Shown here one piece after another: positions 7,547-63,398 of a stretch of DNA of 64,000 nucleotides. This DNA is from an uncultured Litoreibacter sp. GTDB lineage: Bacteria; Pseudomonadota; Alphaproteobacteria; Rhodobacterales; Rhodobacteraceae. The notes beneath the pieces are model-generated. The model did not search any database, was not told where the DNA came from, and was given only the letters and a program-made list of their open reading frames with translations. The translations under genes and the position numbers were made by a program. The DNA is taken from assembly GCA_947494645.1 (NCBI GenBank), contig CANLVO010000001.1, positions 930,001 through 994,000 of the forward strand. Direction: 5' to 3'. How positions within the stretch are numbered: the stretch's first letter is position 1; each line of letters opens with the position of its first letter.

Positions 7547-8941
7547 TTAGGTCGCAGGCGCCAGCTGGAACGCGTCACGAGCAATCGGTGTGTCAGCCTG
7601 CGTGCGGATCAGCTTGTTGGGAATGAACACTTCCGCGCTGAGCCCGCCCAGACCGGTGGATGTGGCCAGCCGCAGCTCCGCGCCGTATGCGTTGAGCAAA
7701 TCCATCGCAATCGCCAGACCAAGACCGGTGCCGGGTTTCGAGCTGTCCAGCCTACCGCCAGAAGACAGCGCTTCGCGGCGATCATCCTCAGGAATGCCCG
7801 GGCCGTCATCTTCAATGAAAAGCGTGATCCCGCCTTTGACCTGTTCCAGCGACAGTCGCACGGTGGCGTCGCACCATTTCAGGGCGTTATCGAGCAGGTT
7901 GCCCATAACTTCTTCGATGTCCTGCGCATCAATGCGGACCACAAACCCTTTTTCGCAGAAGGTCTCCAGCACCTTGCCATCCCGCGCGGCCATCGCGCCA
8001 AACAGGCGGTTGAACCGGCTGATCGACGCCGCGAGGCTGGTAGACGCCTTGGCCGACGCGCCCGAATTTGCCGCCCGCATCCGCGCAAGTGAACGGCCCA
8101 GTTGCGCGTCCACCCGGTCAAGCGCATCGACGGAAGCGGTCACAGGCAAACCCTGTTCCGACAGCGCCGTCAGCTCGTTGCGCAAGATCGCGCTTGGTGT
8201 CTTCAACGCATGGGCCAGATCCGCGGCCTGACGCCGCGCGCCGCCGATGATCTCTCGGTTGCGTTCCAGAAGGTCGTTGATGTCGGTGACCAGCGGGGCC
8301 ACCTCTTCGGGATATTCGTCGGGGTTCAACCCCTCTTCCAGCTCCCACCTGCCGGCGACGTCTTTGCGCAGCTGGTCAATCGGGCGCATGATCGCGGTGG
8401 TCTGCACGATCGCGCCCGCAAATACCAGCAGCGCCAACAGGGCAAAGGCCAACAGCAGGCTGCGCCGCGTGGCCGCCTGCTCCAATGTCAGGCTTTCGCG
8501 GGCCTCGGCCACGGTGATGCCCCAGGTGCTGCCATCTGACAGCCGCACCGATTGATGCACGGTCCGCACAGGTTCCGAGCGCATTTCGATTGCGTCCTGA
8601 AACAACGCGCCTTCCACGATGCCACCGGGCACATCCAGCGTTTCACTGAGCATGGACTCTGAGGTGAACACCCGCCCATCAGGCGATACAATTTGCCAAT
8701 ACCGCCCCGAAAACGGGGTGCGGAAGGCCGGGTCAAAGATGTTTTCAGACAGCCGCGCCGGGTCACCTTCGGCATCATTGAGCGCGATGATCAGTTGTGT
8801 GTGGCGGTCTTTCAGCGTGTTGTCGAAACGCGATAAGGCAATCGTGCCCATCAGCGTGTAAAGCAGGTAGGTCCCGACCGCGAGCACGATGATCGCCGTC
8901 ATCCCGCTGCCAATCAGCGCGCGTTTGCGCAGCGACAGCAT
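7547..8941 (-). CDS. PhoQ-like sensor histidine kinase
   Basis: 464 residues. Membrane helices at about 8-33 and 156-178 flank a periplasmic sensor region; a HAMP-like linker follows. The phosphorylation site is His244 in ADLAHALKTPSA, a variant box (H-A-L-K-T-P) as in PhoQ rather than the usual H-E-L-R-T-P. The ATPase domain has NLLDNALKW, DDGPGIP and GTGLGLAIA. The ATG overlaps the stop of the response-regulator gene by one base, so the two form a co-translated pair. The signal sensed is unknown; PhoQ-like kinases often respond to divalent cations or envelope stress, which is only analogy here. Confidence 0.9.
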   Translation of the reverse strand: MLSLRKRALIGSGMTAIIVLAVGTYLLYTLMGTIALSRFDNTLKDRHTQLIIALNDAEGDPARLSENIFDPAFRTPFSGRYWQIVSPDGRVFTSESMLSETLDVPGGIVEGALFQDAIEMRSEPVRTVHQSVRLSDGSTWGITVAEARESLTLEQAATRRSLLLAFALLALLVFAGAIVQTTAIMRPIDQLRKDVAGRWELEEGLNPDEYPEEVAPLVTDINDLLERNREIIGGARRQAADLAHALKTPSAILRNELTALSEQGLPVTASVDALDRVDAQLGRSLARMRAANSGASAKASTSLAASISRFNRLFGAMAARDGKVLETFCEKGFVVRIDAQDIEEVMGNLLDNALKWCDATVRLSLEQVKGGITLFIEDDGPGIPEDDRREALSSGGRLDSSKPGTGLGLAIAMDLLNAYGAELRLATSTGLGGLSAEVFIPNKLIRTQADTPIARDAFQLAPAT

Positions 8942-9600
8942 CAGGCGGCGTCAATCATGTAGCCGCGTCCGCGGATGGTCTGAATAAAGTCCGAGCCCAG
9001 CTTCTTGCGCAACCGGGTGATGAACACGGCGATGGTGTTGCTGTCGCGGTCGCCGTCATAGGAATAGATATGCTCTGACAGCTCTGTGCGCGATATCAGC
9101 CGGCCGCTGTTATGGACCAGATAGGACAGCACCGCGACCTCCTGGGAGGTCAGATCAACGGGGATCCCATGCGCCGCAACCCGGCCATTGCGGGTGTCAA
9201 AGCTGATCCCGTCTTTCTCGAACATCGGGTTGGTTTGCCCAGATTTGCGCCGCAAGGTGGCACGCACCCGGGCGGCCAGCTCAGACATGTTGAACGGCTT
9301 GGTCATGTAATCATCTGCGCCCGCATCCAGCCCGTCGACGCGGTCAGACCAGCCGTCCCGCGCGGTCAGGATCAGCACCGGCGTATCGATCCCCTCGGCC
9401 CGCCATTTCTTCAGCACAGAGATCCCATCCTGACCGGGCAGACCGATATCAAGGATGATCATGTCATACGGTTCCGTGGACCCCAGAAAATGCGCCTCAT
9501 CCCCGTCAGCCACGGCATCCACCGCGCGCCCCTCAGAGATCAGAAGCGTTCTGATCTGGTCGCTCAAGACCTGCTCGTCTTCTGCCAATAAAATTCTCAT
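8941..9600 (-). CDS. OmpR/PhoP-family response regulator
   Basis: 219 residues. The receiver domain has the acidic pair EDE at 7-9, the phosphoacceptor Asp51 in MIILDIGLPG, a Thr in ILTAR and Lys in TKPF; the second half is a winged-helix DNA-binding domain ending FIQTIRGRGYMI. It precedes and overlaps the PhoQ-like kinase. Upstream of the ATG the AT-rich GCAAAGCAATTGGG region probably contains the promoter, but I cannot assign boxes with confidence. Confidence 0.93.
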   Translation of the reverse strand: MRILLAEDEQVLSDQIRTLLISEGRAVDAVADGDEAHFLGSTEPYDMIILDIGLPGQDGISVLKKWRAEGIDTPVLILTARDGWSDRVDGLDAGADDYMTKPFNMSELAARVRATLRRKSGQTNPMFEKDGISFDTRNGRVAAHGIPVDLTSQEVAVLSYLVHNSGRLISRTELSEHIYSYDGDRDSNTIAVFITRLRKKLGSDFIQTIRGRGYMIDAA

Positions 9601-9706
9601 GCGTAGAAACTAGCAAAGCAATTGGGCAAAGCTGTGGCCGAAACGGGCCAATTCTGGTGCGAAAACCCCTGCGTTCTATAGGATTTCAGGTATCAACGCC
9701 CCAAAT

Positions 9707-9730
9707 AGAAAAGACCGCCCGAAGGCGGCC
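9707..9730 (-). terminator. intrinsic terminator with UUCG tetraloop
   Basis: Read on the minus strand, GGCCGCC-TTCG-GGCGGTC makes a seven-base-pair stem (one G-T) capped by the very stable UUCG loop and followed by TTTTC. It ends a leftward transcript although no convincing gene lies to its right, which is why I propose an RNA gene here. Confidence 0.8.
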
Positions 9731-10052
9731 TGTTCTATACGTGAGAGGTGGAAAGTGAGGGGGTCTGGAGGGACAGGTCTCTAAAATTCTGTGTCGTCTT
9801 ATCTGTGTGTCGTCTTATCTGTGTCTCGTCTGCTCGGTCTCGCTCTGGCGCTTCTGTCGCCGCCGGACCGTGGCGCTTTGCGGCTGCAACTCTGGGCTGG
9901 AAGACCCGGTCTTGCGGTCGCGCTGTTGGCGCTTTGGTCGGCTCGGCTCGTCGTCGTTTCAAGTCCTATCGGCGGTTCGGGCTACCCCTTGGAGGGTCTA
10001 GAAGAGGCTAGATGACTAGGCAGCTCTCTGCGTCGATGTCCTATTTATGCCG
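9707..10052 (-). ncRNA. candidate SOS-controlled small RNA (about 345 nt)
   Basis: Between frcA and the response regulator lies about 640 bases without a credible ORF. On the minus strand there is a promoter (next entry), a LexA box over its -35, and a UUCG-capped terminator. From 10080 to 9735 the minus strand contains no ATG and no GTG; the longest frame would need a TTG at 9962 with no ribosome site and gives a low-complexity basic peptide of 75 residues. The transcript would contain a purine-rich 16-base tandem repeat and an AAGACC-GGTCTT inverted repeat. A non-coding RNA is the simplest reading; a TTG-started small basic protein is the alternative. I recognise no known RNA family. The remaining stretch 10098-10238, before frcA, holds nothing I can name. 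Confidence 0.5.
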
Positions 10053-10058
10053 CAATCG

Positions 10059-10097
10059 ATTTTAATGAAGAGCGAACAAGCTGTTCATATTCGGTTC
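10059..10097 (-). promoter_or_regulatory. promoter overlapped by LexA box (SOS box)
   Basis: The plus strand reads GTTC-ATATTCG-GTTC at 10083-10097, an exact alphaproteobacterial LexA site (GTTC-N7-GTTC). On the minus strand TGAACA (10087-10082, -35-like, 4/6) and TAAAAT (10064-10059, -10-like, 5/6) are 17 bases apart, and the LexA box covers the -35. Start of transcription would be near 10052. A LexA repressor bound here would block only leftward transcription; there is no rightward gene to serve. Confidence 0.65.
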
Positions 10098-10238
10098 ATC
10101 TTGCGAAATCTAGATTAAGCCTTTGATAAACAATGAATATTACTGCCAATAGACCCGAGGTTCCGACACCAAACCCAGCCCCAAAACCCCGAAGATGAAC
10201 GCCAAGTCCCGTCCCCAAAGAGAATCACGTCCGCCCTC

Positions 10239-11018
10239 TCAGGCAGATTCGACCTCTTTCGGGGCCTCTTTCGCGCCGGTCATAAAGGCCACGGCGTCAG
10301 ACATGGTGTAATCCTTGGGGTTGATCACGCACAGCCTGCGCCCCAGCCGGTGCACGTGGATGCGGTCGGCCACCTCGAACACATGCGGCATGTTGTGGCT
10401 AATCAAGATGATCGGAATTCCGCGCGACCGCACATCCTGAATAAGCTCCAGCACCTTGCGGCTTTCCTTGACGCCCAAGGCCGCCGTCGGCTCGTCCAGA
10501 ATAATCACCTTGGAGCCAAACGCCGCGGCTCGCGCCACGGCGACCCCTTGCCGTTGCCCCCCTGACAGCGTCTCCACCGCCTGATTGATGTTCTGGATGG
10601 TCATCAGCCCCAGCTCGGTCAGCTTGTCGCGCGCCTGACGCTCCATCTCCGCGCGGTCGAGCTTGCGAAAGATCGAGCCCATGATGCCCGGTTTGCGCAG
10701 CTCGCGGCCCATGAACATGTTGTCGGCAATCGACAGGGCAGGGGACATGGCCAGCGTCTGGTAGACCGTCTCGATCCCGGCATTGCGCCCTTGTATCGGG
10801 TTGGAAAACTGGATGCGTTTGCCTTCCAGATAAATCTCCCCCGCATCCGGCACCACCGCGCCCGAAATCGCCTTGATCAGCGAGGACTTCCCCGCGCCGT
10901 TGTCGCCAATCACCGCCAGAATTTCCCCCGGCATCAGGTCGAAATCGCAATGATCGAGCGCTGTGACCTTGCCGTAGCGTTTGACCAGCCCGCGGCCTTT
11001 GAGAATAGGGTCGGTCAT
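10239..11018 (-). CDS. frcA: sugar ABC transporter ATPase, FrcA type
   Basis: 259 residues from the ATG at 11018 (MTDPILKGRGLVKRYG), which overlaps the permease stop by four bases. A single ATPase cassette: Walker A GDNGAGKSS near residue 37, signature LSGGQRQGVAVARA, Walker B VIILDEPTAALG, and the switch His in LISHN. CUT2 sugar importers such as RbsA normally have two fused cassettes of about 500 residues; one cassette is characteristic of FrcA, the fructose/mannose/ribose system of rhizobia, and supports the frc assignment. Order frcB-frcC-frcA and the divergent ROK gene agree. Substrate is inferred, not shown. Confidence 0.85.
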   Translation of the reverse strand: MTDPILKGRGLVKRYGKVTALDHCDFDLMPGEILAVIGDNGAGKSSLIKAISGAVVPDAGEIYLEGKRIQFSNPIQGRNAGIETVYQTLAMSPALSIADNMFMGRELRKPGIMGSIFRKLDRAEMERQARDKLTELGLMTIQNINQAVETLSGGQRQGVAVARAAAFGSKVIILDEPTAALGVKESRKVLELIQDVRSRGIPIILISHNMPHVFEVADRIHVHRLGRRLCVINPKDYTMSDAVAFMTGAKEAPKEVESA

Positions 11019-28966: not shown

Positions 28967-29067
28967 GGCGGTGCCCTTTGGATAGCGTTCGTAGGCGGAG
29001 TGTTGCGCCAACGCTCTGCCTCCGCAACGGGAATTGCGACATAGGTTAACGCAGGACCGACTTTTCC

Positions 29068-29096
29068 TTGTCGATGTTCCTGCTATGTTCTATTGT
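29068..29096 (+). promoter_or_regulatory. promoter with internal LexA box, radical SAM gene
   Basis: TTGTCG (29068-29073), a 17-base spacer, then TATTGT (29091-29096). The spacer holds GTTC-CTGCTAT-GTTC at 29076-29090, an exact alphaproteobacterial LexA site. Transcription would begin at or within a base or two of the ATG at 29103, so the message is probably leaderless. Confidence 0.7.
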
Positions 29097-29102
29097 CGCA
29101 GA

Positions 29103-30185
29103 ATGGAATTGAAACCACAGCTGGACCCACGACGCAGGCCGGGGCGCGGTGCGTCAACAAACCAGACCAACCGCTTTGAATCATTGGTAAATGTCGGCAT
29201 CGATGATGGTTGGGGCCGCGAAGAAGACTTGCCACCATTGCGCACTGAAGTGAGCGTTGAAGTGCCGCGTAAGGTGATCACGCGCAACAGCTCGCCTGAT
29301 CTGCATTTCGACCGTTCCATTAACCCTTATCGCGGATGTGAACATGGCTGTGTGTATTGCTTCGCCAGACCAAGCCACGCCTATCTGGGGATGTCTCCTG
29401 GATTGGACTTTGAAACGCGGTTGATTGCGCGGCCGGATGCGCCGGGGGTGCTGAAAAAGGAGCTGCGGGCGAAGGGGTATATGCCTCGGGTGATGGGCAT
29501 TGGGACCAACACGGACCCGTATCAACCTATTGAAAAGGATAGACAAATCATGCGCGGGCTGCTGCGCGTGTTGGCTGATCACCGTCATCCTGTGGCGATC
29601 GTTACGAAAGGCACGCTGATTGAGCGGGATCTTGATATTTTGCGGGAGATGGCGGCGGAGAATCTGGTGCGGATCGGGATCTCTGTCACCACGTTAGATG
29701 TTGATATTGCACGGAAATCGGAGCCCCGAGTGCCGTCTCCGGCGCGTAGGTTGCGGGTGATTGAGCGATTGGCTGAGGCGGGGATTGAGGTGCGGGTGAT
29801 GGCGTCGCCGCTTATTCCGGGGCTGAGCGATCATGAGTTGGAAGCGATCTTGGAGGCTGGGAAAAATGCGGGCGCGAAGGCGGCTTCGGTCATTCCGCTA
29901 AGGCTGCCACGCGAGGTCTCTGAGCTGTTTCAGGATTGGCTAGAAGAGCACTTTCCCCAAAGAAAAGAACGGGTTATGGCGCGGGTGCGGGAGATGCATG
30001 GCGGGCGGGACTATGATCCTGAGTTCGGCAAACGGATGACAGGGACCGGAACCTACGCGCAATTGTTGCAGCAAAGATACCGCAAGGCCTGCAAAAGACT
30101 GGGGCTGGCGACGAAGTTGGCTCCACTGCGTAGTGACCTGTTTCGGGTGCCCGTCGAAAAAGGCGACCAAATGTGCCTGTTTTGA
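29103..30185 (+). CDS. PA0069-family radical SAM protein (SplB-like, COG1533)
   Basis: 360 residues from ATG at 29103; the frame is open to 29034, but the promoter described above ends at this ATG. The radical SAM cluster motif is Cys79-x3-Cys83-x2-Cys86 in RGCEHGCVYCFARP, followed by TNTDPYQPIEK and TKGTLIERD, which match spore-photoproduct-lyase-like proteins of COG1533. This family is annotated as DNA repair photolyase by similarity but, to my knowledge, has no proven substrate. The LexA box makes a DNA-damage role more credible. It lies inside the methionine group on the opposite strand. Confidence 0.88.
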   Translation: MELKPQLDPRRRPGRGASTNQTNRFESLVNVGIDDGWGREEDLPPLRTEVSVEVPRKVITRNSSPDLHFDRSINPYRGCEHGCVYCFARPSHAYLGMSPGLDFETRLIARPDAPGVLKKELRAKGYMPRVMGIGTNTDPYQPIEKDRQIMRGLLRVLADHRHPVAIVTKGTLIERDLDILREMAAENLVRIGISVTTLDVDIARKSEPRVPSPARRLRVIERLAEAGIEVRVMASPLIPGLSDHELEAILEAGKNAGAKAASVIPLRLPREVSELFQDWLEEHFPQRKERVMARVREMHGGRDYDPEFGKRMTGTGTYAQLLQQRYRKACKRLGLATKLAPLRSDLFRVPVEKGDQMCLF

Positions 30186-63383: not shown

Positions 63384-63398
63384 GTTCTCTTTACGTTC
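63384..63398 (+). promoter_or_regulatory. LexA box of uvrA
   Basis: GTTC-TCTTTAC-GTTC, an exact alphaproteobacterial SOS box, 66 bases before the uvrA ATG and just after the stop of the MFS gene. uvrA is a standard SOS gene. Confidence 0.85.

Follow-up and report, generated by a model that had tools for sequence, protein, structure and literature searches.

A candidate noncoding RNA gene under the predicted operator of a neighbouring two-component system in Litoreibacter

The stretch of DNA analysed, referred to throughout as the window, comprises 64,000 nucleotides of the genome of an uncultured Litoreibacter sp. (G000). The interval of interest, on the minus strand, is bounded by the end of an ABC-transporter gene at 10239 and the start of a response-regulator gene at 9600. 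The features used below are the following.

7547..8941, minus: sensor histidine kinase (PhoQ/PmrB-like; HATPase_c, 2CSK_N), presumed partner of the response regulator
8941..9600, minus: OmpR/PmrA-type response regulator (Response_reg, Trans_reg_C), presumed regulator of the RNA promoter
9708..10037, minus: predicted noncoding RNA, approximately 330 nt with inferred ends, from promoter, terminator and noncoding evolution
9712..9731, minus: intrinsic terminator, AGGCCGCC-UUCG-GGCGGUCU followed by a U tract
9735..9962, minus: TTG-initiated ORF of 75 codons, not a gene by its substitution pattern and gaps
9766..9773, minus: UCCCUCCA motif shortly before the terminator
9860..10043, minus: conserved 5' part of the predicted RNA, from identity relative to fourfold sites
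9985..9996, minus: CCCUCCAAGGGG, a C-rich motif shared without change by G000, G016 and G019, which may form a small hairpin
10044..10049, minus: -10 element CATAAA, 11 bases past box 2; transcription start expected at about 10037
10061..10077, minus: response-regulator box 2, GTTCGC-TCTTC-ATTAAA, with the same orientation as the RNA
10083..10099, plus: response-regulator box 1, GTTCAT-ATTCG-GTTCAT, best match to the box matrix in the window

The response regulator is closest to PmrA/BasR, with its best NCBIfam match, PmrA (NF007928), reaching 222 bits and so falling below the membership cut-off of 330; the kinase scores 121 bits with the PhoQ profile, for which the cut-off is 497. In many relatives the regulator follows a gene whose exported product has a tail rich in glycine and asparagine. 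At L032-L060, these proteins, with long glycine/asparagine-rich C-terminal repeats, are encoded directly before the regulator-kinase pair. They are described as 'PepSY-like' because the Pfam family PepSY (PF03413) matched only one of three scanned, and that weakly (E 0.054, 14.3 bits against a cut-off of 24), the other two giving no match. A search of the literature library consulted, for a PepSY protein associated with a response regulator in Rhodobacterales, found nothing.

The first-pass annotation had read the interval as an SOS-induced small RNA, and its description of the parts was largely accurate. The sequence GTTCATATTCGGTTC at 10083-10097 of the plus strand is indeed an exact GTTC-N7-GTTC, which reads GAACCGAATATGAAC on the minus strand, where it forms a GAAC-N7-GAAC at 10097-10083. 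The proposed minus-strand promoter with 17-base spacing, TGAACA-17-TAAAAT at 10087-10059, is present as the sole sigma-70-like site in 9580-10260, compared with 0.4 (sd 0.7) in shuffled sequence. Neither ATG nor GTG occurs on the minus strand between 10058 and 9707, as had been noted, while there are three TTG codons. The UUCG-capped terminator exists at 9731-9712, its stem consisting of eight pairs rather than seven, and it ends about 110 bases before the start of the regulator gene on the same strand. The broader proposal of a noncoding minus-strand unit with its own promoter and terminator gains support from the genome comparison described below, which points to selection at the RNA level.

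Read on the minus strand, the RNA promoter consists of ATGAAC CGAAT ATGAAC AGCTT GTTCGC TCTTC ATTAAA ATCGATTGCGG CATAAA, i.e. four half-sites starting 11 bases apart (ATGAAC-N5-ATGAAC-N5-GTTCGC-N5-ATTAAA-N11-CATAAA). The reported 'LexA box' is the first 15 bases of box 1, which, seen from the minus strand, provides the two upstream, reversed half-sites of this promoter. The TAAAAT previously taken as the -10 element overlaps an operator half-site and is not conserved, the same place being occupied by TAAATG in G016 and TAAATA in G019. Better conserved is CATAAA at 10049-10044, relatives having CATAAA, CATAAC or a close variant (CACAAA, GATAAC, CATAAG, CATACC) at this position, and half-sites are found at the place of box 2 in 14 of 21 genus genomes.

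This arrangement was compared with the sequences upstream of regulator orthologues in other genomes (L032-L063), of which 27 were scored; the omitted loci are two partial ones (L045, L054) and three with weaker regulators that lack the exported-protein arrangement (L061-L063), while L029-L031, without the exported-protein gene, lie outside the scored range. All but one of the 27 have RTT(C/A)A-N6-RTT(C/A)A with a TA exactly 11 bases past the second half-site, the exception being L047, which has no box; L053 has an extra box lacking the TA. At L058, the identical 17 bases, GTTCATATTCGGTTCAT, stand in front of the regulator operon. A box matrix trained on 26 regulator-operon promoters of other genomes, none from the window genome, places 10083 (plus) first in the 64-kb window at 23.8 bits, equal to the training median, against 16.2 bits for the next match and maxima of 10.6-19.9 bits in 20 simulated windows. 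With the -10 element included in the matrix (a 34-mer), the top two matches in the window are 10083 (plus, 25.1 bits) and 10077 (minus, 11.2 bits). Box 2 is therefore weak, being under the training minimum (range 21.0-42.3 bits). The 11 bases that separate it from the -10 element equal the corresponding distance in the promoters from which relatives would transcribe the regulator operon. The pattern RTTCAY-N5-RTTCA-N12-TA matches the entire G000 genome once, at the window site; relaxing the pattern and dropping the TA gives six matches.

The box thus matches the operator of the adjacent OmpR-family regulator in sequence, half-site spacing, -10 distance, genomic position and phylogeny. By the same comparisons, the regulator would be expected to bind here, and presumably to activate rather than repress transcription. 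The 6-5-6-11 layout is that of PhoP/PmrA-type promoters, with two 6-base half-sites 5 bases apart and about 11 bases to the -10 element. The locus differs from these in its half-site, GTTCAT, in having a second, inverted box upstream, and in a regulator that scores below the PmrA cut-off. A search on the PmrA box in the same literature library found nothing.

The four-half-site operator occurs once in each of 14 of the 21 genus genomes, and its reversed control in none. All 12 operator-bearing genomes that are at least 90% complete also have the regulator; the other two, G013 and G019, in which no regulator was seen, are incomplete. The regulator is found without this operator in G004, G015 and G017, and both are absent from the complete genomes G006, G018 and G020 and the incomplete G011. 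Operator and regulator therefore co-occur, with none of the three regulator-less genomes of at least 90% completeness carrying the operator. In the family sample, the operator was detected in 8 of 394 genomes (nine sites, the window included). Six of these fall among the 22 of 395 genomes with a close regulator, the regulator sample differing from, and overlapping, that used for the operator. The site lies 0.46-1.07 kb from the regulator gene start in five of the six, and on another contig than the close regulator in G320, while G093 and G183 have the operator pattern and no regulator at the strict threshold. At L157, L161, L162 and L150, the reverse box serves as promoter for the regulator operon, which makes the operator divergent; at L150 no -10 element is evident on its other side.

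A scan of a wider collection for the operator pattern returned 16 loci, of which eight carry the genus label Litoreibacter: three from uncultured members and one each from L. albidus, L. arenae, L. meonggei, L. halocynthiae and L. ascidiaceicola. The remainder comprise two Tateyamaria, Albidovulum, Hoeflea, Devosia, an alphaproteobacterial MAG, and MAGs of Chitinophagaceae and Eubacterium; the last two matches are presumed to be chance. Outside Rhodobacteraceae, the four-half-site operator precedes apparently secreted-protein genes at L109 (Hoeflea), L113 (Devosia) and L115 (the alphaproteobacterial MAG); at L115 it is beside a regulator-kinase pair, and no regulator homologue was found in the 8-kb loci L109 and L113. 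At L107, L160 and L161, the genes across the operator appear by our own reading to be TadE-like.

Close homologues of the RNA itself were found in just three Litoreibacter genomes (G000, G016 and G019). In searches of the other 20 genus genomes by DNA similarity, G016 matched at 77% over the whole length, and G019 at 89% over 249 bases with a second piece besides, its contig ending at the terminator. Short matches at E <= 0.01 were found in G008 and G013, that in G013 including the promoter and lying at a contig end (L007). Across 394 family genomes, DNA similarity identified, besides the window, 20 short matches of 20-55 bases, of which five loci were inspected (L009-L012 and L022). The sequence TGAACCGAATATGAACAGCTTGTTCGCTC is identical in G000, G016 and G019, whereas conservation is low in the adjoining upstream flank. 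Between 10043 and 9860, identity with G000 is 154/180 in G016 and 160/184 in G019 (86-87%), compared with 57-69% at fourfold sites of the neighbouring genes (75/108 for the regulator and 142/248 for the kinase in G016, 90/137 for the ABC gene in G019). The 3' part, 9859-9733, has identities of 68/114 and 68/94 (60-72%), hardly above those fourfold sites. Because its identity exceeds that at the fourfold sites, the 5' half is constrained as RNA; the 3' part is not clearly so. The whole RNA folds no better than shuffled sequences (z 0.04 and 0.48; -1.17 for the 3' half). The three-sequence consensus fold likewise gives no signal above shuffles: only 2 of its 73 pairs have a two-sided change, and the covariation term of +4.45 kcal/mol counts against structure. 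Within the RNA of G000, a tandem repeat of 16 bases in 2.6 copies is present at 9790-9831; G019 has a deletion here, and the alignment with G016 shows no clear counterpart.

Of the 14 operator-bearing genus genomes, eight (G001, G002, G003, G008, G009, G010, G012 and G014) have a small-protein gene of approximately 62-84 codons, depending on the choice of start, under the operator; that of G009 requires a TTG start. One uncultured Litoreibacter and the named species L. meonggei, L. halocynthiae, L. ascidiaceicola, L. arenae and L. albidus encode the small protein too, although judging by sequence these six seem to be identical with six of the eight genus genomes; two Tateyamaria have a 58-codon relative under the same operator. 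No convincing match to it could be found in G000, G016, G019 or G005 (the best, in G005, having an E of 0.039 over 20 residues); the G013 locus stops at a contig edge, and the pattern in G007 is a divergent regulator-operon promoter. The small protein matches nothing in Pfam or NCBIfam, and a search of 394 family genomes yielded two weak matches, both with internal stops. Members of this operator-linked family (L110, L116-L121, L111, L039) have about 58-84 codons and a motif F-x-x-(I/V)-(D/E)-x-VL; by eye, L163 encodes a similar FPDVDDI protein. Where the small protein is encoded, its unit has a terminator of its own, which is followed by a separate regulator-operon promoter.

The comparison suggests that the RNA either descends from the small-protein mRNA or replaced it under the same operator. 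A recA tree of 19 genomes, without G013 (partial recA) and G011 (no recA match), groups G000, G016 and G019 together (87/83) and G005 with G009 and G007 (97/98), 3 of its 16 inner branches being strong. A single origin of the noncoding form is unsupported, as the position of G005 apart from the other three requires two changes; consequently, the ORF may have been lost twice, or G005 may be a separate case. It is possible, if on balance doubtful, that an mRNA was turned into an RNA gene: the small-protein ORF, which is coding in sister species and has a distant relative in Tateyamaria, would have been lost, and a noncoding regulator kept under the same operator and a terminator, with the exported-protein gene missing before the regulator in G000, G016 and G005.

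Two C-rich motifs are found in the RNA. The 5' motif CCCUCCAAGGGG has a close version, CCTCCAAGGG, in G013 too. Before the terminator, TCCCTCC is present in G000 (9773-9767), G019, G005 and seven of the eight Litoreibacter small-protein transcripts; G016 has CCCTCC only, G009 has no TCCCTCC after its ORF, and one Tateyamaria has TCCCTC. The frequency of TCCCTCC in the window is 27 in 18266 stretches of 70 nt. Since the UCCCUCCA part is poorly conserved and the exact motif is absent from G016, the idea of anti-Shine-Dalgarno pairing would rest mainly on CCCUCCAAGGGG.

The region 10099-9708 on the minus strand is probably a noncoding RNA gene, with the operator of the neighbouring two-component system as its promoter. 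In the proposed sequence of events, activity of the kinase (7547-8941) would lead to phosphorylation of the response regulator (8941-9600), which would bind the four 6-base half-sites, one helical turn apart at their 11-base period, and recruit RNA polymerase to CATAAA. Transcription would stop at the UUCG hairpin, some 110 bases short of the regulator gene, yielding a product of about 330 nt that could act in trans as a noncoding arm of the two-component system, its CCUCC-type motifs pairing with ribosome-binding sites. Base-pairing in trans is put forward, tentatively, as the likeliest of the modes of action considered.

Under the SOS small RNA that had been proposed, LexA would repress the minus-strand promoter and DNA damage would induce the RNA, a reading that relies on the exact GTTC-N7-GTTC over the proposed -35. 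The bare pattern is common, with six occurrences in the window against 1.58 expected and none of 100 shuffles reaching six; genome-wide there are 63 instances, compared with 137 for the reversed control pattern. The GAAC-N7-GAAC is intact in 7 of the 14 genus operators (G000, G016, G019, G013, G005, G014 and G007), including those of the closest relatives of the window, such that LexA could still bind. The other seven have lost one GAAC while keeping the operator, the first half-site being ATTAAC or GTTAAC in six and ATGAAT in G009, whereas the recA boxes are intact in all 19 scored (20 were fetched, one being partial); conservation across relatives is thus not that of a LexA-regulon site. The spacer is also unlike those of recA boxes, the site scoring 4.0 bits (rank 46 in the window) with a recA-box matrix that gives recA boxes 15-27 bits, although this matrix, built from recA boxes alone, is over-fitted and deserves little weight. 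As the -10 element proposed with it is not conserved either, and as all that a LexA box explains is explained by the regulator operator too, LexA control is considered very improbable. On SOS-controlled small RNAs in Alphaproteobacteria, which the first-pass annotation had called little described, a search of the literature library gave no paper that was on topic as judged by title and opening of the abstract.

A stronger challenge to base-pairing in trans, and its main rival, is a role in cis, with the RNA as the 5' leader of the regulator-kinase operon, which would be autoregulated through the RNA promoter while the terminator at 9731-9712 sets the level of read-through. This supposes that the separate regulator-operon promoter of other species, which has the same box, is missing in the clade of the window; between the terminator and the regulator start, about 110 bases downstream on the same strand, no regulator box is found among the top matches listed. 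By eye, the terminator arm GCCGCC has a potential pairing partner in a GGCGGC of the conserved part. However, 330 nt and a strong UUCG terminator would be needed equally by a free RNA, and such a leader function would not be ancestral, because the small-protein unit terminates before a separate regulator-operon promoter. A cis role is, on this evidence, unlikely. That the RNA is a functionless relic, a decaying small-protein mRNA whose promoter persists since the operator is still bound, would fit the loss of the ORF in the clade, the lack of a structural signal and the drift of the 3' part, but the 5' part is too conserved relative to fourfold sites for this, making it an improbable account. 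Hardly credible is either a plus-strand gene or a small protein initiated at a TTG or some other codon, for which the 75-codon TTG frame, plus-strand frames of 64-87 codons and short ATG and GTG frames in G016 could be invoked. A conserved TTG frame with synonymous bias, which the first-pass annotation had named as a finding that would overturn its reading, was not seen: the ORF starting at 9962 evolves as noncoding sequence. Compared with G000, the three codon positions have 11/15/13 substitutions in G019 and 19/21/20 in G016; of the changed codons, 4 are synonymous, compared with 24 and 35 that are nonsynonymous, and the alignments have gaps. The three plus-strand ORFs have the same pattern, all four tested frames contain gaps, and a stop is gained in three of eight comparisons. 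The even changes over codon positions, the excess of nonsynonymous over synonymous changes and the gaps rule out these four frames as genes.

Other candidate LexA sites were noted. The best in the window, GTTCTCTTTACGTTC at 63384-63398, lies about 55 bases before a uvrA ORF (63453 on; UvrA_inter match). GTTCCTGCTATGTTC at 29076-29090, just ahead of the likely ATG of an ORF (29034-30185) that we read as radical-SAM-like, is a possible LexA target. At L069 (G000 C1:1345479-1345495), GTTCATATTGAGTTCAT lies between genes read by us as RseP-like and BamA-like, and is possibly a further target of either the regulator or LexA. L009 was considered as a LexA site upstream of ssb and rejected, as the box is beside the 3' end of the gene, read by us as ssb-like; there, at L009:1504-1520 (G046), the 17-base box of the window recurs as part of an incomplete set of four half-sites that points away from the 3' end of that gene. 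At L022, a box precedes a gene that we read as MmcB-like.

A scan of the region against Rfam returned no match either at the gathering score or at E <= 1, yet the kind of element, an RNA under a two-component system, is already known. CpxQ is a small RNA from the 3' UTR of cpxP, within the Cpx two-component system; as at this locus, an RNA from a unit activated by a response regulator is tied to its own two-component system, and one promoter has coding and noncoding output (PMC9438474). The resemblance is by description, CpxQ being about 60 nt and cleaved out of a transcript in which the CpxP reading frame is retained, whereas the window's clade has no such ORF and a conserved 5' half. The LhrC small RNAs of Listeria share with the RNA predicted here two-component dependence, in their case on LisRK, and C-rich motifs, namely UCCC motifs, one of which is demonstrated or presumed to base-pair with a Shine-Dalgarno site (PMC4132741). 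They are likened by description only, being present in five copies in a low-GC Gram-positive host. LhrC RNAs are also shorter than the approximately 330 nt predicted here. CcsR1-4 and CcaF1 of Rhodobacter sphaeroides are alphaproteobacterial small RNAs tied to a small-protein gene, from whose 3' UTR they derive, recalling the small-protein link in relatives of the window (PMC8625941). This likeness too is one of description; these RNAs are processed from an mRNA, and the small protein of the window's relatives has no Pfam match. CcsR1-4 and CcaF1 have a C-rich CCUCCUCCC motif and are controlled by sigma factors. In the FeuN-FeuP-FeuQ system of Sinorhizobium, the periplasmic modulator FeuN binds and inhibits FeuQ; relatives of the window are similar in arrangement alone, with an exported-protein gene before the regulator, and the available part of the FeuN account mentions no RNA (PMC12486126).

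One consequence is that, when alphaproteobacterial genomes are scanned for GTTC-N7-GTTC, OmpR-family operators of 11-base period can be mistaken for LexA boxes. The operator described here is diagnostic for the regulator-kinase system and can be read from sequence alone. A false SOS lead is replaced by a regulator-kinase circuit of Rhodobacteraceae, with, probably, a noncoding RNA under it. Were the conversion of an mRNA into an RNA gene to hold true, feedback on the kinase could run through RNA instead of protein.
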